From the NCBI GenBank assembly GCA_021323705.1, contig JAJPKL010000012.1:1-64000 (forward strand): a stretch of 64,000 nucleotides of DNA. Direction: 5' to 3'. The position numbers were made by a program, and so were the translations under genes. Below, piece by piece: positions 3,141-54,095 of the stretch; the stretch's first letter is position 1, and each line of letters begins with the position of its first letter. The DNA is from Nitrososphaerota archaeon. GTDB lineage: Archaea > Thermoproteota > Nitrososphaeria > Nitrososphaerales > Nitrosopumilaceae. The notes beneath the pieces are model-generated. The model saw nothing but the letters and a program-made list of their open reading frames with translations, was not told the DNA's origin and searched no databases.

Positions 3141-3834
3141 ATGCTCCAGTGATAGGCCTTGCGTCATCAGAGGCAAGGAAAAGAATCACATTTGCAATGT
3201 CAACTGGTTTAACCCACTTGGCATAGTCTGCACCAGGCATTGCAATCCGGTTTTCCTGCGTATCAATTATGCTTGGCAGAATGCAGTTGACGTTGACTCC
3301 TTTTGATTTTACTTCCTCAGACAGTGACTCGACCAACCGTATCACGCCAGACTTTGATGCAACATATGCAGCATCAAACCCAGTTCCCTTCAGTCCCGGC
3401 CTTGCAGCAACGTGAATTATTTTTCCACCAGATTGTTTTACCATTTGTGCTGCAACGTGTTTGCTTAGCAAGAATGCAGTCTTGAGGTTAAGGTCCATCA
3501 TCTCGTCCCACTCTTTTTCATCAATCTCTGTTACCGGCTTGCCTGCAATGTATCCTCCTATGACATTTGCAAGTACATCTATCCTTCCGAATCGCTTTAG
3601 CACTTCGGAGACTAGAATTTTTGCGTCGTCTTCTTTTTTAAAGTCACCCCGCAGTAAGAACACATTTTTTGATTGACCACACATCTTTTGCAGCAGTGGA
3701 AGGGAATTATCAGAATAGTATGTCAAAACAAGCGATGCGCCAGCCTTTAGAAATGCTTGGCCGACATCGACCCCTAGGCCTCCGCTGCCTCCCGTCACAA
3801 GCACCACCTTTCCTGAGAAACTAAGATCTTTCAT
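3115..3834 (-). CDS. SDR-family NAD(P)-dependent oxidoreductase (FabG/PhaB-like)
   Basis: MKDLSFSGKVVLVTGGSGGLG Rossmann motif, YVASKSGV catalytic YxxxK. ORF can extend to 3906; the Met at 3834 fits typical SDR starts better. Confidence 0.85.
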   Translation of the reverse strand: MKDLSFSGKVVLVTGGSGGLGVDVGQAFLKAGASLVLTYYSDNSLPLLQKMCGQSKNVFLLRGDFKKEDDAKILVSEVLKRFGRIDVLANVIGGYIAGKPVTEIDEKEWDEMMDLNLKTAFLLSKHVAAQMVKQSGGKIIHVAARPGLKGTGFDAAYVASKSGVIRLVESLSEEVKSKGVNVNCILPSIIDTQENRIAMPGADYAKWVKPVDIANVILFLASDDARPITGASIPVYGLA

Positions 3835-44919: not shown

Positions 44920-46107
44920 ATGAAAGGAAAGGCAGTTTTAGCTTTCTCTGGGGGACTTGACACTTCAGTTGTCATAAAATATCTTCAAGAAAAACACAAC
45001 TTGGATGTTGTCACAATAACAGTTGATGTTGGTCAAGGCGATGATCTCAAAAAGATTGCAGCCAAGGCAAAAAAACTTGGAGTTGTCAGACACTACAATG
45101 TTGACGCAAAAGATGAATTTGTAAATAATTTCATATTTCCATCAATCAAGGCAAATGCGCTTTATCAAAAGAAATATTGTCTTGCGACCGCTCTTGCCAG
45201 ACCCCTTATTGCACAAAAAGTTGTGGAGATGGCCAAAAAAGAAAATGCGCAAGCCCTAGCACATGGATGCACAGGCAAAGGAAATGATCAGGTGCGATTT
45301 GATGTTACAATGAGATCAGGTTCTACTCTTCCAATCATTGCACCAATACGTGATCTCAATCTTACTCGTGATGTAGAGCTGAAATTTGCAAAAAAACATG
45401 GAATACCAATTGAAACTGCAGCAAAGAGATTCAGCATAGATCAAAACTTGTGGGGCAGAGCAATAGAAGGTGGTGAGCTTGAGGATGCATATGCAGAACC
45501 GCCTCAAGATGCGTTCATCTGGGTAAAGACCAAGGACTTGTCAGACAAACCACAGTATCTTGAAGTAAAATTTGTCAACGGAATACCAATTGCAGCAGAT
45601 GGCAAGAACCTAAAACCAATCGACCTTATAGAATACATCAATAAAAAAGCAGGTGCGGCAGGTGTCGGAATAGTTGATCATATTGAAGACAGGGTAGTTG
45701 GGATAAAATCTCGCGAAGTATATGAAACTCCGGCGGCACTTTGTCTAATTGAGGCACATACCGATCTAGAAAAAATGGTCCTTACAAAGCACGAGCTAAA
45801 GTTCAAAGCAATGGTTGATGCAGAATGGGCTTGGCTTGCATATTCCGGCCTCTGGCAAGATCCTCTGAAAACCGATTTAGATATGTTTATCAATGCGTCG
45901 CAGAAGAGAGTTAGCGGAACTGTAAAGCTGAAAATGTTCAAAGGAAGTCTAAGAGTGGTTGGAAGAAAGTCAGATTATTCGTTATACAGTCATGATTTAG
46001 CAACGTATGGTGCAGGCTCTACCTTTGACCAAACTCTTGCAAAAGGGTTTGTAGAATTGTGGGGCCTTCAATCAACAGAAGCTAATAAATTACTAAAAAA
46101 GAGGTGA
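44920..46107 (+). CDS. argG: Argininosuccinate synthase
   Basis: MKGKAVLAFSGGLDTSVVIKYLQEK, AHGCTGKGNDQVRFD. Confidence 0.97.
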   Translation: MKGKAVLAFSGGLDTSVVIKYLQEKHNLDVVTITVDVGQGDDLKKIAAKAKKLGVVRHYNVDAKDEFVNNFIFPSIKANALYQKKYCLATALARPLIAQKVVEMAKKENAQALAHGCTGKGNDQVRFDVTMRSGSTLPIIAPIRDLNLTRDVELKFAKKHGIPIETAAKRFSIDQNLWGRAIEGGELEDAYAEPPQDAFIWVKTKDLSDKPQYLEVKFVNGIPIAADGKNLKPIDLIEYINKKAGAAGVGIVDHIEDRVVGIKSREVYETPAALCLIEAHTDLEKMVLTKHELKFKAMVDAEWAWLAYSGLWQDPLKTDLDMFINASQKRVSGTVKLKMFKGSLRVVGRKSDYSLYSHDLATYGAGSTFDQTLAKGFVELWGLQSTEANKLLKKR

Positions 46108-46118
46108 AAGATCAAAGA

Positions 46119-46286
46119 ATGAATTGTCCAGAATGTGACGCAAATTTAAAAATTCCAGACGATGCAAGTGTTGGAGAGATCGTATCTTGTCCTGATTGCG
46201 GGGCAGATTTCGAGATTGCATCCAAGAACGGCACCGTGTGCGAATTAAAGCATGCTGAAAAAGTAGGCGAAGACTGGGGAGAGTAA
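46119..46286 (+). CDS. lysW: LysW amino-group carrier protein (copy 1, EDWGE terminus)
   Basis: MNCPECDANLKIPDDASVGEIVSCPDCGADFEI...EKVGEDWGE*; two CxxC, canonical C-term Glu. Confidence 0.93.
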   Translation: MNCPECDANLKIPDDASVGEIVSCPDCGADFEIASKNGTVCELKHAEKVGEDWGE

Positions 46287-47144
46287 ATGCCCAAAGTCCG
46301 CATCGTGTTCGATAGAGTAAGACTAGAGGAAAAAATGCTCGAGGAAAAGGCAGTCGAGCTTGGACACGATACAAAGATGATAGATGCAAAGATAACCAAC
46401 GTCAGCACCGAGAGTAAAAGGAGTGATTTTGATTTTGGCGATGTTGTATTGGAAAGATGTGTCAGTTATTTTCGTGGACTTCACTTTACGGCTTGCCTAG
46501 AGTTTCTCGGAGTTCCTGTTTTCAACAAGTTTGAAGTTGCAAATAACTGCGGTAACAAGATGATAACATCGCTTTTGTTAAAGAAACACAACGTTCCTAC
46601 TCCCAAGACTTACTTTTCCTTTTCTTCCGAGTCAGCAGTTGAAGTCTTGGACAAGGAAGGATATCCTCTAGTTATAAAACCAATCATTGGGAGTTGGGGC
46701 AGAGGAGTAGTTTTGCTAAAAGATAGGGATACTGCTGACGCAATTATTGAGGTAAGAGAGTTAAATGATGGTCCTCTAGATAGGATATACTATTTGCAAG
46801 AAGCTGTGAAGAGGCCTCCTAGGGACATACGTGCGATAGCAGTAGGAGACCAAGTGATAGCAGCAATGTATAGGACTTCATCCGGCGGATTTAAGACGAA
46901 TATCGCACTTGGCGGAGAGCCTGTTCCCTGTGAAATAACCAAAGAGTTGGAAGATATTTGCATGAAGGCATCAGAGGCAGTAGGTGGAGGAATTCTCGGA
47001 ATTGACATCATGGAAGATGAAAAAAGAGGACTGGTAGTTCACGAAGTAAATAATACTGTAGAGTTTAAAGGACTGGCAAAGGTTGCCAAACGAAACATTC
47101 CAAGAGAAATGATTGAGTATGCAGTTAGATCAGCTGTAAAATAA
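46287..47144 (+). CDS. argX: LysW ligase (LysX/ArgX family), likely ArgX-type
   Basis: RimK-like ATP-grasp; VHEVNNTVEFKGLAKVAKRNIP; starts immediately after lysW copy 1, next to argG. Confidence 0.82.
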   Translation: MPKVRIVFDRVRLEEKMLEEKAVELGHDTKMIDAKITNVSTESKRSDFDFGDVVLERCVSYFRGLHFTACLEFLGVPVFNKFEVANNCGNKMITSLLLKKHNVPTPKTYFSFSSESAVEVLDKEGYPLVIKPIIGSWGRGVVLLKDRDTADAIIEVRELNDGPLDRIYYLQEAVKRPPRDIRAIAVGDQVIAAMYRTSSGGFKTNIALGGEPVPCEITKELEDICMKASEAVGGGILGIDIMEDEKRGLVVHEVNNTVEFKGLAKVAKRNIPREMIEYAVRSAVK

Positions 47145-47201: not shown

Positions 47202-48254
47202 ATGAGAGTAGGAGTAATTGGGGCATCAGGATATGTAGGCGGAGAGATTCTAAGGTTACTTGTAAGTCATCCCAAAGTTGAGATTACTGCAGTTACTTCA
47301 AGGCAGTATGTTGGAGAATACATATCAAGAGTTCAGCCTAGTCTCAAGGGATTCACTGATCTAACTTTTTCAGAATTAAACTATGACAAGCTGTCAGACA
47401 AGTGTGATCTGGTGTTTACTTCAGTACCGCACGGCACAGCAGTTGACATTGTAAAAGAGCTCTATGACCGAGGAATGAAAGTAATTGATTTGAGTGCAGA
47501 CTATAGACTGCATAATGCAACAGACTATGACAAGTGGTATGGCTGGCAACACCCACACCCAGACTATCTTCCAAAGTCTGTGTTTGGAGTTCCAGAGCTT
47601 CACAGAGAAGAGATCAAAAAAGCACAGCTTGTTTCGTGCCCCGGATGCATGGCAGTGACATCAATTCTTGCACTATACCCATTGGTCAAAAAGGGAATCA
47701 TAGATACAGAGCACATAATAGTGGATTCCAAGATAGGATCGTCTGGAGCCGGTGCGGGCTCAGAGGCAGGTACTCATCATGCAATGAGGTCAGGTGTGAT
47801 TAGGCCATACAAGCCAGCAAAGCACAGACATACAGGAGAGATTGAGCAAGAGCTTAGCCAAGCCGCTGGAAAAAAAATCAAGGTCTCCATGAGTCCACAT
47901 GCGGTAGACATTGTAAGGGGAATCTTGTGTACAAACCACACATTTCTCACAAAGGAAGTAACAGAGATTGACCTATGGAAGATGTATCGCGAGCAGTATC
48001 AAAATGAGAAATTCATCAGGCTGATTCGCGACAAGAAAGGATTTTACAAATTCCCTGATCCAAAGTTTGTTGTAGGTTCAAACTTTTGTGACGTAGGCTT
48101 TGACATAGACGAAGACAATAATAGATTGGTAGTACTATCAGCATCAGATAATCTAATGAAAGGTGCGGCAGGCTCCGCCATACAAAACTTGAATGTCATG
48201 GCAGGCTTCAACGAGATGGAAGGCCTCACCTATTCTCCATTAACTCCTGTGTAA
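47202..48254 (+). CDS. argC: LysY/ArgC-type [LysW]-aminoadipyl/glutamyl phosphate reductase
   Basis: VGVIGASGYVGGEILRLL, VSCPGCMAVTSILALYPL, GSSGAGAG. Confidence 0.93.
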   Translation: MRVGVIGASGYVGGEILRLLVSHPKVEITAVTSRQYVGEYISRVQPSLKGFTDLTFSELNYDKLSDKCDLVFTSVPHGTAVDIVKELYDRGMKVIDLSADYRLHNATDYDKWYGWQHPHPDYLPKSVFGVPELHREEIKKAQLVSCPGCMAVTSILALYPLVKKGIIDTEHIIVDSKIGSSGAGAGSEAGTHHAMRSGVIRPYKPAKHRHTGEIEQELSQAAGKKIKVSMSPHAVDIVRGILCTNHTFLTKEVTEIDLWKMYREQYQNEKFIRLIRDKKGFYKFPDPKFVVGSNFCDVGFDIDEDNNRLVVLSASDNLMKGAAGSAIQNLNVMAGFNEMEGLTYSPLTPV

Positions 48255-48258
48255 TGAG

Positions 48259-49059
48259 ATGATCACAATTAAGATAGGAGGAAGTGTAGTAGATGGTCTT
48301 CACCCCTCAACAATTTCAGACCTCAAAAAAGTATCAGAGCAAGAAAAAGTAATTCTTGTGCACGGCGGAGGCAAAGAGGTCACAAAAATTTCCGAGGCAC
48401 TTGGAAAAGAACAGAAATTCATAGTTTCTCCCGGCGGCATCAAAAGCAGATACACCGATAAAGAAACCGCTGAAATTTTCACCATGGTAATGTCAGGCAA
48501 GATAAACAAAATGATTGTCGGAATGTTACAGAAAAATGGAATAAATGCGGTAGGTCTTTCCGGAATAGACGGCAAGATAATTCAAGCCGAACGAAAAAAG
48601 AAACTCATCGTAATTAATGAAAAGGGCAGAAAGATGGCAATCGATGGAGGCTACACCGGCAAGATTCATGATGTGAACTCAAATCTTATCAAAGTAATCT
48701 TAGACCAAGGATATGTTCCAGTAATTTCTCCGATTGCAATAAGCGAAGAGTCTGACTTTCTCAATGTTGATGGCGACAGAGCGGCTGCCTATGTAGCAGG
48801 AAAGATGCAGTCAGACAGGATACTATTTCTCACTAACGTAGATGGTCTTTTAATGGATGATAAACTAGTCACCAAACTATCTCTTGACGAAGCAAAAGCA
48901 ATCCTTCCAAAGATAGGATTTGGCATGGAAAAGAAGATACTTGCTGCCACAGAAGCAATTGAGATGGGCGTAAAACAGGCAATAGTTGCAAACGGCCAAA
49001 GAGAAAACCCAATATCATCGGCCATTGCAAACGACAAATGCACGGTGATTTCAAAATGA
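48259..49059 (+). CDS. argB: LysZ/ArgB-type [LysW]-aminoadipate/glutamate kinase
   Basis: TIKIGGSVVDG, VLVHGGGKEVTK, NVDGDRAAAYVAGKM. Confidence 0.93.
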   Translation: MITIKIGGSVVDGLHPSTISDLKKVSEQEKVILVHGGGKEVTKISEALGKEQKFIVSPGGIKSRYTDKETAEIFTMVMSGKINKMIVGMLQKNGINAVGLSGIDGKIIQAERKKKLIVINEKGRKMAIDGGYTGKIHDVNSNLIKVILDQGYVPVISPIAISEESDFLNVDGDRAAAYVAGKMQSDRILFLTNVDGLLMDDKLVTKLSLDEAKAILPKIGFGMEKKILAATEAIEMGVKQAIVANGQRENPISSAIANDKCTVISK

Positions 49060-50231
49060 CTGAGGATCAATTCATGGGAAATATCTATCAGAGGTTTCCC
49101 GTCACAATAGAACGCGGCTTGGGGTCTCACGTATGGGACATCAACGGAAAAGAGTATATTGACTTCATGGGCGGATATGGTGTTGCCCTCGTCGGTCACT
49201 GCAATCCAAGAGTAGTCAAGGCACTAAAAGCTCAGCTTGATAAAATAATCACAGTTCACAGCTCGCTTTACAACAAGACAAGAGAAGAGTTTCTTGAGAG
49301 GCTTATCAAAGTTGCACCCTCTGGCCTCAGCCAAGTATATCTTAACAACAGCGGAACTGAAGCAGTAGAGGCAGCCATAAAATTTGCTCGCAAATTTACC
49401 GGAAGAAAGAGCATGGTTGCAATGAACGGATCATATCACGGCAAGTCGTTTGGATCACTTTCGCTCACGTTTAATCCAAAATATCGCAAGGCGTTTGAGC
49501 CTCTTCTAAGCAATGTATCGTTTACACCATTTGGTGATATTGAGGCGCTCAAATCTGTTGTAAATTCCGATACAGCACTTGTCATACTCGAACCGATTCA
49601 AGGAGAGAGTGGAATACATGTTGCACCTGATGGTTTTCTGCAGGATGTAAGAAAATTGTGCAATGAAAATGGAGTTGTTCTGATATTTGATGAGATTCAG
49701 GCAGGTTTAGGGAGAACCGGCAAGTTATGGGCAAGCCAACATTGGGATACAGTTCCAGACATAATGTGTCTTGCAAAAGGAATTGCAGGAGGTGTGCCAA
49801 TGGGTGCGACTCTTGTCAAACCAGAGATTCTGGCAGCCATTGGTAAAGGAGAACAATCCTCAACCTTCGGCGGAAATCCGCTCTCATGTGCCTCTGGAAT
49901 TGCTACAATTCAAGCGTTGACAGAAGACGGCCTAGTTGAAAATGCTGCAAAGATGGGCAAGATGCTACGAGAAGGATTGGAAAGGCTAAAAGAAAAACAC
50001 AAGATAATTCGAGAGATTCGAGGCAAGGGACTCATGATTGGAGTTGAGATGAAGTTTGAGGTAAAAGACATACTCTTTGACGCAATAGCAAATAATCTTT
50101 TATTGCTTTATTCAGGAAAGAACATCTTGCGATTGTTGCCACCTCTTGTGCTTTCAGAATCTGACATAAACAAAGCTTTAGAAACTCTCGATGTCCTACT
50201 AACAAAAGAGGAACAAAGAAGAAATGTCTAG
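49056..50231 (+). CDS. argD: LysJ/ArgD-type aminotransferase
   Basis: YLNNSGTEAVEAAIKFARKFTGR, LIFDEIQAGLGRTGK, LAKGIAGGVPMGA; ATGA overlap with argB. Confidence 0.94.
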   Translation: MTEDQFMGNIYQRFPVTIERGLGSHVWDINGKEYIDFMGGYGVALVGHCNPRVVKALKAQLDKIITVHSSLYNKTREEFLERLIKVAPSGLSQVYLNNSGTEAVEAAIKFARKFTGRKSMVAMNGSYHGKSFGSLSLTFNPKYRKAFEPLLSNVSFTPFGDIEALKSVVNSDTALVILEPIQGESGIHVAPDGFLQDVRKLCNENGVVLIFDEIQAGLGRTGKLWASQHWDTVPDIMCLAKGIAGGVPMGATLVKPEILAAIGKGEQSSTFGGNPLSCASGIATIQALTEDGLVENAAKMGKMLREGLERLKEKHKIIREIRGKGLMIGVEMKFEVKDILFDAIANNLLLLYSGKNILRLLPPLVLSESDINKALETLDVLLTKEEQRRNV

Positions 50232-50643
50232 AGACAAGACGGATGAAACAATAATTGAAATGCTAAAAAAAGATTCGAGGCAGTCTTTTGTCGAGATAGG
50301 AGAAAAACTAGGGCTTTCAGAATCTGCGGTTAGAAGAAGAGTGAAGAATCTGACCGATGGAGGAGTAATAAAAAAATTCACCATTGAAACAGGTGACAGC
50401 AATTCAACTAGTGCCATAATTCTGATATCTGTTGATTCTTCAACTGACACTTCCAAAGTGTCAGCAAGATTGTCAAAGTTGCAAGGAGTTCACACTGTTT
50501 ATGAAATCACTGGACAGTATGATATTGCAACGATCATCAAAGCACCAACCATCACTGAGATAAATTCCTGCATAGACGCTTTGCGCAAGATACCGGGTGT
50601 TTTTGACACCAATACCGTCATAATCCTCAGAACTGTTGTCTAA
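50224..50643 (+). CDS. Lrp/AsnC-family transcriptional regulator (LysM-like)
   Basis: N-term HTH (IIEMLKKDSRQSFVEIGEKLGLSESAVRRRVKNLTDGGVI) and RAM domain; inside the lys/arg cluster. Confidence 0.93.
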   Translation: MSRDKTDETIIEMLKKDSRQSFVEIGEKLGLSESAVRRRVKNLTDGGVIKKFTIETGDSNSTSAIILISVDSSTDTSKVSARLSKLQGVHTVYEITGQYDIATIIKAPTITEINSCIDALRKIPGVFDTNTVIILRTVV

Positions 50644-50759: not shown

Positions 50760-51950
50760 ATGGACGATCCGAATTACTACGCCTACAAATACAACGAGAT
50801 GGGATCAAAGCCAAAAAAGATCCACATACTGGACAGTACGTTAAGGGAAGGAGAACAACACCCAGGTGTCACTTTTTCCAACAAGCAGAGAATCCAAATT
50901 GCGTGGATGCTAGATTACTTTGGTGTTGACCAAATTGAGATTTCGCCAGTAGTGTCCCCAGATCATAAAGAAGCAACTAAGACGATAATCAAGCAAGGAC
51001 TAAAAGCTGACATTGTTGCTCATGTCAGAGCTCTAAAAGAAGATGTAGACGTAGCACTAGAATGCGATGCCACATGGATGGCAACTTATCTTGGAATTTC
51101 AGATATTCACATGAAGGATAAACTCAGAATAACACGTGAAGAAGCAATGCGAAGGGCAGTAGAGACGGTAGAGTATGCCAAGTCTCATGGTTTTAAGATG
51201 CGATTCACCGTAGAAGATGCCAGCAGAGCTGATCCAGAATTCCTTCTCCAAGTTTGCAAGGCAATATCAGATGCGGGAGTTGACAGAATCAGCATACCAG
51301 ATACGGTTGGAATAATGAGACCAAGCGGTATGTACAATTTAGTAAAGACAGTTCGCGCTCAGATCAAGACGCCGCTGGATGTACATTGTCATAATGATAT
51401 AGGATTGGCATTGGCCAACGCATTGGCAGGATGTGAAGGTGGTGCTGATCAAATTCACACAACTATTGACGGCGTTGGAGAGCGAACTGGCATACCTGCT
51501 CTGGCAGAGACTGCGGTAGCATTAACTTATCTGTACAGATCTCCAAACAATCTCAGGCTAGACATGCTAATGGACCTTTCAAGACTGATTGAACAGTATA
51601 CAAGCATAGTACCATATGATTCCAAACCCATAGTTGGTGCTACTGCATACAAGCACAAGGCAGGAACACACTTGGCCGCAATTCTCAGAAACCCCGCGGC
51701 CTACGAGCCAATAGAGCCAAAGGTAGTAGGCAATAGACGAAGAATAGTCTTCGGAGAGCTTGCAGGTAAGAATGGTGCGGCATATCTAATGTCTCTCCTT
51801 GGCCTAGAGCAAGATGATGAACAAGCAAAGAAAGTGGCGGCAGGCCTCAAGAATCTAAGGATGGGAGACCTACTTGAGATCCCATTGGATGAAAGGCTTG
51901 AAAGAAAGATAATTAATGACACCCAAATGAAGGTAAAGGCAGGTAAATAG
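50760..51950 (+). CDS. Homocitrate synthase / isopropylmalate synthase family
   Basis: HILDSTLREGEQHPGVTFSNKQRIQIA, DVHCHNDIGLALANALAGCEGGADQIHTTIDGVGERTG; in the lysine cluster. Confidence 0.93.
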   Translation: MDDPNYYAYKYNEMGSKPKKIHILDSTLREGEQHPGVTFSNKQRIQIAWMLDYFGVDQIEISPVVSPDHKEATKTIIKQGLKADIVAHVRALKEDVDVALECDATWMATYLGISDIHMKDKLRITREEAMRRAVETVEYAKSHGFKMRFTVEDASRADPEFLLQVCKAISDAGVDRISIPDTVGIMRPSGMYNLVKTVRAQIKTPLDVHCHNDIGLALANALAGCEGGADQIHTTIDGVGERTGIPALAETAVALTYLYRSPNNLRLDMLMDLSRLIEQYTSIVPYDSKPIVGATAYKHKAGTHLAAILRNPAAYEPIEPKVVGNRRRIVFGELAGKNGAAYLMSLLGLEQDDEQAKKVAAGLKNLRMGDLLEIPLDERLERKIINDTQMKVKAGK

Positions 51951-51951
51951 C

Positions 51952-52116
51952 ATGAAATGTTTAGAATGTGACGCAAACATCAACCCTCCAAAAGATTCAA
52001 TGGAAGGCGAGATTGTGACTTGTCCTGACTGCGGCGCAAGTTTTGAGTTAACTAAAGGATCCTCTGGCTTTGAGTTAAAACCAGCACAAACTGTTGGTGA
52101 GGACTGGGGCCAGTGA
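51952..52116 (+). CDS. LysW-like carrier protein (copy 2, EDWGQ terminus)
   Basis: Hand translation: MKCLECDANINPPKDSMEGEIVTCPDCGASFELTKGSSGFELKPAQTVGEDWGQ* (54 aa); GAG GAC TGG GGC CAG TGA. Confidence 0.9.
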   Translation: MKCLECDANINPPKDSMEGEIVTCPDCGASFELTKGSSGFELKPAQTVGEDWGQ

Positions 52117-52961
52117 GCTCGGGACTATCAATACTCTACGATACCATCAGATGGGAGGAAAAGGCGCTGCATGATGCTGCGAAGAAGAAAGGCATCAACG
52201 CAGTGATGGTTGACTGTAAGAGTTTATCCATTAATTTAGATAAGAGTAAGGAAGAGTATGACACGGCAATACAGCGTTGTGTGAGTTATTACCGAAGTCT
52301 GCATTCTACTGCAGCGCTTGAAGGAAAGGGTGTTAATGTAATCAATAGTTTGAACACCAGCATATTTGCTGGAAACAAGTTGTTCACTCACATGCTTCTA
52401 GTAAAAAACGGAGTTCCAACACCATTTAGTGCAGTGGCGTTTTCAGAGGAAGCCGCGTTAGAACTGTTAGATAAAAAAGGCTACCCAATGGTACTCAAGC
52501 CAACAGTTGGAAGCTGGGGAAGAATGATAGCGTTACTAAAAGATCGTGACTCTGCCGAAGGAATAATGGAGACGCGTGAAAAGATGTATCCCATATACCA
52601 AGTATATTATCTTGAAGAGTTTGTGAACAGACCTCCACGCGACATTAGGGCAATAATGATAGGCGATATAGTAGTTGCTGCAATATACAGATATTCTGGA
52701 GACGGGCAGTGGAAGACAAACATGGCCCTTGGAGGCAAGGCAGAACCGCTGAAGGTAACAAAGGAGATGGAAGACATATGCATAAAAGCAAAAAATGCAG
52801 TGCAGGGTCAGATAGTTGGCATCGACTTGATGGAAAGTAAGGAAAAGGGGTTAGTTGTTCATGAAGTCAACAATACAACGGAATACAAAAATACCGTCAG
52901 AGTTACTGGCGTAGATATACCAGCCTTGATGATAGATTACGCAAAACAATCGAGAAAATAA
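52113..52961 (+). CDS. lysX: LysW ligase (LysX/ArgX family), likely LysX-type (alpha-aminoadipate)
   Basis: RimK-like ATP-grasp; VHEVNNTTEYKNTVRVTGVDIP; GTG start overlaps the lysW copy 2 stop (GTGA). Confidence 0.85.
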   Translation: MSSGLSILYDTIRWEEKALHDAAKKKGINAVMVDCKSLSINLDKSKEEYDTAIQRCVSYYRSLHSTAALEGKGVNVINSLNTSIFAGNKLFTHMLLVKNGVPTPFSAVAFSEEAALELLDKKGYPMVLKPTVGSWGRMIALLKDRDSAEGIMETREKMYPIYQVYYLEEFVNRPPRDIRAIMIGDIVVAAIYRYSGDGQWKTNMALGGKAEPLKVTKEMEDICIKAKNAVQGQIVGIDLMESKEKGLVVHEVNNTTEYKNTVRVTGVDIPALMIDYAKQSRK

Positions 52962-52964
52962 GAA

Positions 52965-54095
52965 TTGGACTCTTCAATTACCATTACACCAAGATATTCA
53001 GTAAAGATGCTAGAGAAAGCTCTGAGGCTTTACACCCCTTCGCTTTCTGAAAAGCAGCTGGCCGAATTTTTAGCAGACAAGTGTGACGATCTAGGATTTG
53101 AGAACATCCGCATTGATGAGGTAGGCAACCTCATTGCAACAAAAGGTTCTGGATCTCCAAAAATATTGCTTTGCGGACATATGGATACCGTACCAGGAAA
53201 AATAAAGGTAAGAAATGAGAATGGGCACATCTATGGTAGGGGAGCCTCAGATGCAAAGGCTCCTTTGATGGCAATGCTTCTTGCAGCGGCCTCACTTCAA
53301 AACAACAATGGCACTGTGGTCTTTGCCGCCGTAGTAGACGAGGAGGGAAATGCAACTGGCATCAAGAGTCTTGTCAAACAAAAGCTGGACATCGATTATG
53401 CAATCTTTGGCGAGCCAAGCAGTATAAGGAATATCACAATAGCATACAAGGGAAGAATTGCCATAAACCTCAAGGTAAACGTTGGAGACAGTGCACATGC
53501 CAGTGCTCCATGGCTTGCAAAAAATGCAATTGAAGAATCATACGTATTTACCAAGGCAATCAAGGACGAGCTTGAAGGAAAACAAGAAGGAAAACCAAAA
53601 AGCATGATGTTGACGGCAGCTCTTACTGAGATAAAGGGAGGCACAAGCCACAATGTCACAGCAGTAGAGTGCGACGCAGTGATGGACATCAGAATTCCAG
53701 TTGACATGAATTGTAAAATGGTTGGAGAAAAAATTGCATCCACTGTAACAGAGGTGGCAAAAAAGCAAGGAGTAAATGCATTTTATTCCATACTGGATGA
53801 GACAGAACCATTTGAGGCACCACATAGTTCCCCACTAGTGAGGGCGTTGACTCTTGGCATACTAGATGTAGAAAAAGCAAGGCCGCAGTTAATTAGAAAG
53901 ACTGGAACTGGCGACATGAACATAATTGGAAATACATTGAACATACCCGTTGTAACTTATGGTCCAGGAGACCCACATGCATCACATACAATTGACGAGA
54001 GGGTATCAACAGATGAATATTTGCGAAGCATCGAGGTCTTTAAAAGAATGCTGTATCATCTCAAGAGATTGCACGACGGACAAAAGAAATCCTAA
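52965..54095 (+). CDS. lysK: LysK-type [LysW]-lysine/ornithine hydrolase (M20)
   Basis: LLCGHMDTVPGKIKVRNENGHIYGRGASDAKAPL, VDEEGNATGIK; TTG start. Confidence 0.93.
   Translation: MDSSITITPRYSVKMLEKALRLYTPSLSEKQLAEFLADKCDDLGFENIRIDEVGNLIATKGSGSPKILLCGHMDTVPGKIKVRNENGHIYGRGASDAKAPLMAMLLAAASLQNNNGTVVFAAVVDEEGNATGIKSLVKQKLDIDYAIFGEPSSIRNITIAYKGRIAINLKVNVGDSAHASAPWLAKNAIEESYVFTKAIKDELEGKQEGKPKSMMLTAALTEIKGGTSHNVTAVECDAVMDIRIPVDMNCKMVGEKIASTVTEVAKKQGVNAFYSILDETEPFEAPHSSPLVRALTLGILDVEKARPQLIRKTGTGDMNIIGNTLNIPVVTYGPGDPHASHTIDERVSTDEYLRSIEVFKRMLYHLKRLHDGQKKS

Follow-up and report, generated by a model that had tools for sequence, protein, structure and literature searches.

A glutamine-ended LysW carrier in a probable Nitrosotalea genome and the recurrent alternation of glutamate and glutamine ends among archaea

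INTRODUCTION

In known LysW systems, the substrate is attached to the gamma-carboxyl of the terminal glutamate of the carrier (PMC10433800). In haloarchaeal (Natrinema) ArgW, the E54A substitution abolishes arginine synthesis, and the loaded terminal glutamate has been detected by mass spectrometry (PMC10433800), so the side chain of this residue matters there. The window analyzed here, a stretch of DNA of 64,000 nucleotides, belongs to a 1.84-Mb genome whose genus is very probably Nitrosotalea. It holds two LysW genes in one cluster, the second of which, lysW2, ends in glutamine. This raises the question of whether and how such a carrier works: a terminal glutamine has no gamma-carboxyl, so either a conversion step is needed or another carboxylate is used. 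A search of the open-licence literature for EDWGE and EDWGQ returned no paper on Gln-ended LysW.

The standard description of LysW rests on a terminal glutamate, whereas glutamine takes this place in a large, ecologically important archaeal group and in several unrelated lineages of archaea. Either an activation step has gone unrecognized, probably carried out by an existing pathway enzyme, or the attachment chemistry differs from that described.

lysW2 ENCODES A LysW PROTEIN WITH A VARIANT C TERMINUS

The cluster runs in the order argG, lysW1, argX-type ligase, argC, argB, argD, Lrp-type regulator, homocitrate-synthase-like gene, lysW2, lysX, and lysK. Its features are as follows.

44920..46107, + strand: argG, argininosuccinate synthase (profile match)
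46119..46286, + strand: lysW1, Glu-ended LysW carrier (EDWGE) of the arginine side (NF041070, PF21344)
46287..47144, + strand: argX-type ligase, partner of lysW1 (profile match, ligase tree)
47202..48254, + strand: argC/lysY, semialdehyde-forming reductase common to both branches (profile match)
48259..49059, + strand: argB/lysZ, [LysW]-aminoadipate/glutamate kinase common to both branches (profile match)
49038..50231, + strand: argD/lysJ, aminotransferase common to both branches (profile match)
50224..50643, + strand: Lrp/AsnC-type regulator between the arginine and lysine halves of the cluster (Pfam-type match)
50760..51950, + strand: homocitrate/isopropylmalate synthase-like gene, step 1 of the aminoadipate route (TIGR02146, 390.8 bits, below the cut-off of 413.6)
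51952..52116, + strand: lysW2, Gln-ended LysW carrier of 54 aa with four zinc-ligand Cys and the end EDWGQ (NF041070, PF21344)
52111..52116, + strand: terminal Gln codon CAG of lysW2 (52111-52113) and its TGA stop; the last G of CAG and the TG that follows form the lysX start GTG (52113-52115)
52113..52961, + strand: lysX, RimK-type ATP-grasp ligase with GSWGR intact at residues 133-137 (TIGR02144, 334 bits, cut-off 275.6)
52965..54095, + strand: lysK, M20 zinc amidohydrolase, [LysW]-lysine/ornithine hydrolase (5XOY match, profile matches, metal ligands intact)

Translation of lysW2 yields MKCLECDANINPPKDSMEGEIVTCPDCGASFELTKGSSGFELKPAQTVGEDWGQ, followed by the stop codon. The 3' end of the gene reads GAG GAC TGG GGC CAG TGA (EDWGQ), whereas lysW1 ends in EDWGE. 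This contrast, which is the core of the original prediction, is confirmed by the codons and by the profile matches of both copies: NCBIfam NF041070 (cut-off, 75) scores 82.9 bits for lysW2 and 86.0 bits for lysW1, and both match Pfam PF21344 (lysW2, 44.3 against a cut-off of 27). Both score below the cut-off of TIGR01206, the lysW equivalog model. The zinc-binding cysteines C3, C6, C24, and C27, invariant across the LysW alignment, are present in the lysW2 protein, and a LysX/ArgX ligase and pathway genes adjoin it. Judged by sequence, the lysW2 product is a LysW, but a variant one, with glutamine in place of the C-terminal glutamate that serves as the attachment residue. The same holds when it is set against the LysW/ArgW carriers of Thermus, Sulfolobus, Thermococcus, and Natrinema: the zinc-ribbon body, the EDWG motif, the GSWGR ligase partner, and the operon enzymes are shared, and the difference lies in the last residue, Gln in lysW2 and the attachment-site Glu in the known systems. 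lysW2 begins one base past the stop of its homocitrate-synthase-like neighbor and shares bases of its own TGA with the GTG start codon of lysX, so the gene lies in a real operon.

GLUTAMINE ENDS ARE WIDESPREAD AMONG ARCHAEA

One explanation offered for EDWGQ was that CAG is a sequencing or assembly error for GAG, which a single C/G change would produce. Its relatives refute this explanation and leave it a negligible probability. EDWGQ is the end of every complete lysW2 copy found in the genus of the window, and it is shared by hundreds of independent genomes, with both glutamine codons in use (CAG, 142; CAA, 34). When an order-wide sample of 400 genomes was scanned for EDWG(E/Q) stops, 372 genomes had a LysW-type stop and 277 had one or more that read EDWGQ; of the 209 best genomes, 168 fell in the latter class. 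Relatives with glutamate (GAG) at this codon, named beforehand as a check, do exist, but only in minority lineages, namely, four genomes of one Nitrosopumilus-type genus (G184, G305, G341, and G348) and, separately, G326. Reversion to glutamate has occurred at least twice within the Nitrosopumilaceae.

Within the order, EDWGQ is restricted to three families, and the remaining families have EDWGE only. Judged by how matching loci are named, the three are ammonia oxidizers of the Nitrosopumilaceae (f1), Nitrosocaldus (f2), and Nitrososphaeraceae (f8) types. It recurs elsewhere in the phylum Thermoproteota, in families f25 (seven genomes), f30 (four genomes), f48 (one genome), and f51 (one genome), and outside the phylum in at least two Jordarchaeia and at least two Undinarchaeota-type records. 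Rather than the single odd gene originally supposed, lysW2 is one instance of an alternation between Glu and Gln that is deep and recurrent among archaea. The bacterial EDWGQ-pattern matches, among the matches listed, are not LysW genes; this pattern demanded Gly before EDWG and so would miss LysW with Ala there.

Glutamate codons lie one base away from codons for Lys, Ala, Gly, Val, and Asp. Among 246 distinct LysW proteins, the last residue is Gln in 152 and Glu in 94, and nothing else occurs. No codon other than those for Glu and Gln was seen at a LysW terminus; the EDWG(E/Q) pattern was used to select many of these loci, and the 89 distinct LysW proteins from a protein/profile search that was blind to the last residue likewise end only in Glu or Gln. 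Other non-Glu codons in the phylum scan did not belong to LysW wherever the locus was checkable. The LysW of L328 (G446), counted among the 94 with Glu, ends in EDYGE and is the sole departure from EDWG in the set.

GENOMES WHOSE ONLY LysW CARRIERS END IN GLUTAMINE

Some archaea have no glutamate-ended carrier at all. In the complete, one-contig genomes G031, G065, and G073, the sole LysW is Gln-ended and clusters with both ligases, ArgC, ArgB, ArgD, and LysK; the LysX proteins of these genomes group on the tree with records named Nitrosocosmicus. In G080, G107, and G110, whose LysX proteins group with records named Nitrososphaera, two LysW genes are present per genome, and both are Gln-ended. 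ArgJ was absent from all 14 genomes tested and present in 10 of the 14 controls, and the acetyl-cycle route to arginine is therefore missing. Because complete Gln-only genomes keep both ligases and the common pathway enzymes without ArgJ, the Gln-ended LysW is very probably a working carrier and not a decoy. For lysine, the argument is weaker in families f2 and f8, since LysA-like proteins (about 215 to 256 bits, below the LysA cut-off) are found in the f8/f2 genomes G031, G065, G073, G080, G107, G110, G025, and G071. The six f1 genomes searched, which include that of the window, yielded no LysA-like protein.

These genomes also bear on the suggestion of a non-substrate or regulatory role for the Gln copy, with the Glu copy serving both branches. 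The window organism does have a Glu copy, and there are genomes in which a single LysW supplies both branches. However, the Gln-only genomes, with their pathway kept and ArgJ missing, contradict such a role, and the Gln copy is both tied to the LysX operon by overlapping codons and conserved across the family. As a general reading, a decoy or regulatory copy is very unlikely and was rejected.

The mirror case is G261, in which LysX is kept, lysW2 is absent, and the sole LysW is Glu-ended, an arrangement that may be an assembly artifact. In its record L230 (minus strand, ~3400-3750 from the low end), GC-rich near-tandem repeats replace lysW2 between the homocitrate-synthase-like gene and LysX. 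The Cenarchaeum-type genomes G108 (L227, 7433-7618) and G265 (L229, 408-593) carry a second Gln-ended LysW without an adjoining ligase match; in L229, it adjoins an unrelated gene on the opposite strand.

THE END RESIDUE SWITCHES WITHOUT A MATCHING CHANGE IN THE LIGASE

The tree of the 243 partner ligases, a fast single-gene tree, implies no fewer than 15 Glu/Gln changes; this number is a parsimony minimum and depends on that tree. A first, AOA-centered set required 4 and 7 changes, compared to about 17 and 32 when the labels were shuffled. The labels are thus far from random on that tree, and the end residue is inherited and conserved, yet repeatedly switching. Even sister genomes with a single LysW can differ in its end, as in G520 (Gln) and G485 (Glu), or G512 (Gln) and its sisters G458 and G492 (Glu).

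All combinations of arginine-side and lysine-side ends exist, including Gln on the arginine side with Glu on the lysine side (record L120 and genome G093). A channeling rule in which Q marks lysine and E marks arginine was therefore rejected as general, given that Q,Q; Q,E; single-Q; and single-E genomes exist. Within the Nitrosopumilaceae, the Glu/Gln asymmetry between lysW1 and lysW2 is very stable, which suggests that the two ends are not simply equivalent.

GSWGR, the ligase motif reported to recognize EDWGE (PMC10433800), is present in 242 of the 243 ligases, among which the ATP-grasp residues are conserved as well. In 11 sister contrasts, no conserved or motif column of the ligase follows the Glu/Gln switch. 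Co-adaptation of the ligase was rejected, as the columns that differ most often between E-paired and Q-paired ligases are variable and many lie near the ends. Residues 56 and 11 of the ArgX-type ligases, which an early simple comparison had pointed to as switch markers, were discarded too; they follow one clade and are not seen in LysX-type ligases.

Two ligase variants were observed. In ArgX-type ligases of Nitrososphaeraceae-type (f8) genomes (L221, L223, L225, and others), the otherwise invariant Cys of the RCVS motif (residue 56, P0010 numbering) is mostly Ser or Val. The Undinarchaeota-type L160 ligase (1205-2047), which lies beside a Gln-ended LysW, has GSWAR and is the sole exception to GSWGR among the 243.

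A PROPOSED ROUTE FROM TERMINAL GLUTAMINE TO TERMINAL GLUTAMATE

The best explanation for these observations, to which we assign a probability of roughly 50%, is that LysW2 is a working carrier of the lysine branch, made as a Gln-ended pro-form that would be hydrolyzed to Glu, most likely by LysK. The glutamine would then be a masked glutamate. Hydrolysis of its gamma-carboxamide, presumably by LysK with ammonia as the leaving group, would yield the gamma-carboxylate, after which LysX would ligate aminoadipate in the canonical way and LysZ, LysY, LysJ, and LysK would complete lysine. Conversion explains together why only Glu and Gln ends occur, why they switch frequently, and why the partner does not change. 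Spontaneous deamidation of glutamine is too slow to supply a biosynthetic pathway, and conversion requires a hydrolase wherever Gln arises. Whether any enzyme at all hydrolyzes Gln to Glu is, on the sequence comparisons, an evenly balanced proposition.

Deamidation had been put forward in the original prediction on the model of Pup. It stands as the best-supported reading, but the Pup-type enzyme is missing. Actinobacteria vary in the last residue of Pup, which is either Gln or Glu, and Dop acts both as the deamidase of Pup-Gln and as the enzyme that removes Pup from target proteins; species with Glu-ended Pup have retained Dop (PMC3511204). LysW is thus a second carrier with alternating Gln and Glu ends. 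The two systems have in common a small carrier, an end residue that varies by lineage, and a hydrolase that cuts the gamma-amide of the loaded form. They differ in that the load of LysW is an amino acid and that of Pup a protein, and in that the hydrolase proposed here is the M20 enzyme LysK; no sequence relation is claimed. If LysW matures like Pup, the maturation of Gln-ended precursors would seem to be a general ability of isopeptide hydrolases.

The Pup precedent could also favor a protein-glutamine deamidase distinct from LysK, either dedicated or general. No Dop/PafA (PF03136) was found in any of the 14 genomes searched, with Corynebacterium glutamicum as the positive control. CheD, a known protein-glutamine deamidase, is encoded in the window genome and in some other Gln-bearing genomes, but it is absent from the Nitrosocosmicus-type Gln-only genomes (G031, G065, and G073) and from G209, another genome with a Gln-ended LysW. 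Both were rejected as the general deamidase, Dop being absent and CheD not universal. Moreover, a separate enzyme would be needed in every lineage where Gln arose, and we regard this explanation as improbable.

It is also conceivable, though rather unlikely, that the Gln-ended LysW is never deamidated. The conjugate could be alpha-linked, or a transient C-terminal glutarimide could lead to a terminal isoglutamine whose side chain bears the substrate. In direct alpha-ligation, LysX and ArgX would activate the C-terminal alpha-carboxylate and join the substrate to it, and the Gln side chain would stay unmodified; a terminal Gln has no other carboxylate. The ligase family takes its name from RimK, which extends a C terminus via such a ligation, and the RimK-type C-terminal glutamate ligases, with the same fold and ATP-grasp chemistry, provide a model, although RimK extends ribosomal protein S6, whereas LysX and ArgX load a biosynthetic carrier. 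Alpha-ligation would require no deamidase, in keeping with the absence of Dop and the patchy occurrence of CheD, and the LysW tail is presumably flexible, such that later enzymes might tolerate the shift. It predicts free switching without ligase change just as well as conversion does, and this counts against the LysK reading, as does the stable asymmetry of the two ends within the Nitrosopumilaceae. On the other hand, the terminal Glu of characterized LysW systems is described as loaded at its gamma-carboxyl (PMC10433800). The common LysZ, LysY, LysJ, and LysK would face two geometries in one cell, and the geometry would flip at each of the at least 15 switches. A spectator side chain should, in addition, allow residues beyond Glu and Gln, and none occurs among the 246 carriers. 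Because of the two geometries and the restricted side chain, we rate alpha-ligation as doubtful and below conversion. If it is true, amino-group carriers would have two attachment chemistries, the second of which would serve lysine synthesis in many ammonia-oxidizing archaea and arginine synthesis in some.

For conversion of Gln to Glu, LysK is a better candidate than Dop or CheD. LysW-Gln is equivalent to LysW-Glu(gamma)-NH2, and its gamma-amide is the counterpart of the bond hydrolyzed by LysK in LysW-Glu(gamma)-Lys; by this analogy we tentatively propose LysK as the converting enzyme, at less than even odds. The closest characterized match of the 52965-54095 product is the LysK structure 5XOY, a homolog of the M20 family. 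The M20 metal ligands are invariant in 30 aligned LysK proteins, Q-only genomes included, with one gap at the last histidine. LysK is also present in the pathway loci of nearly all Gln-bearing lineages (the Undinarchaeota stretches are too short to show it). To our knowledge, LysK-type enzymes release amino acids and not ammonia, and we found no report of LysW-Gln deamidation by LysK. A counterpoint to the LysK reading comes from family f48, where G520 and G485 have LysW and a ligase without LysK or other pathway genes nearby; this pair may serve another purpose. Both are complete genomes of one genus, and the LysW-ligase pair occupies positions 9226-10354 in L335 (G520) and 9256-10357 in L336 (G485).
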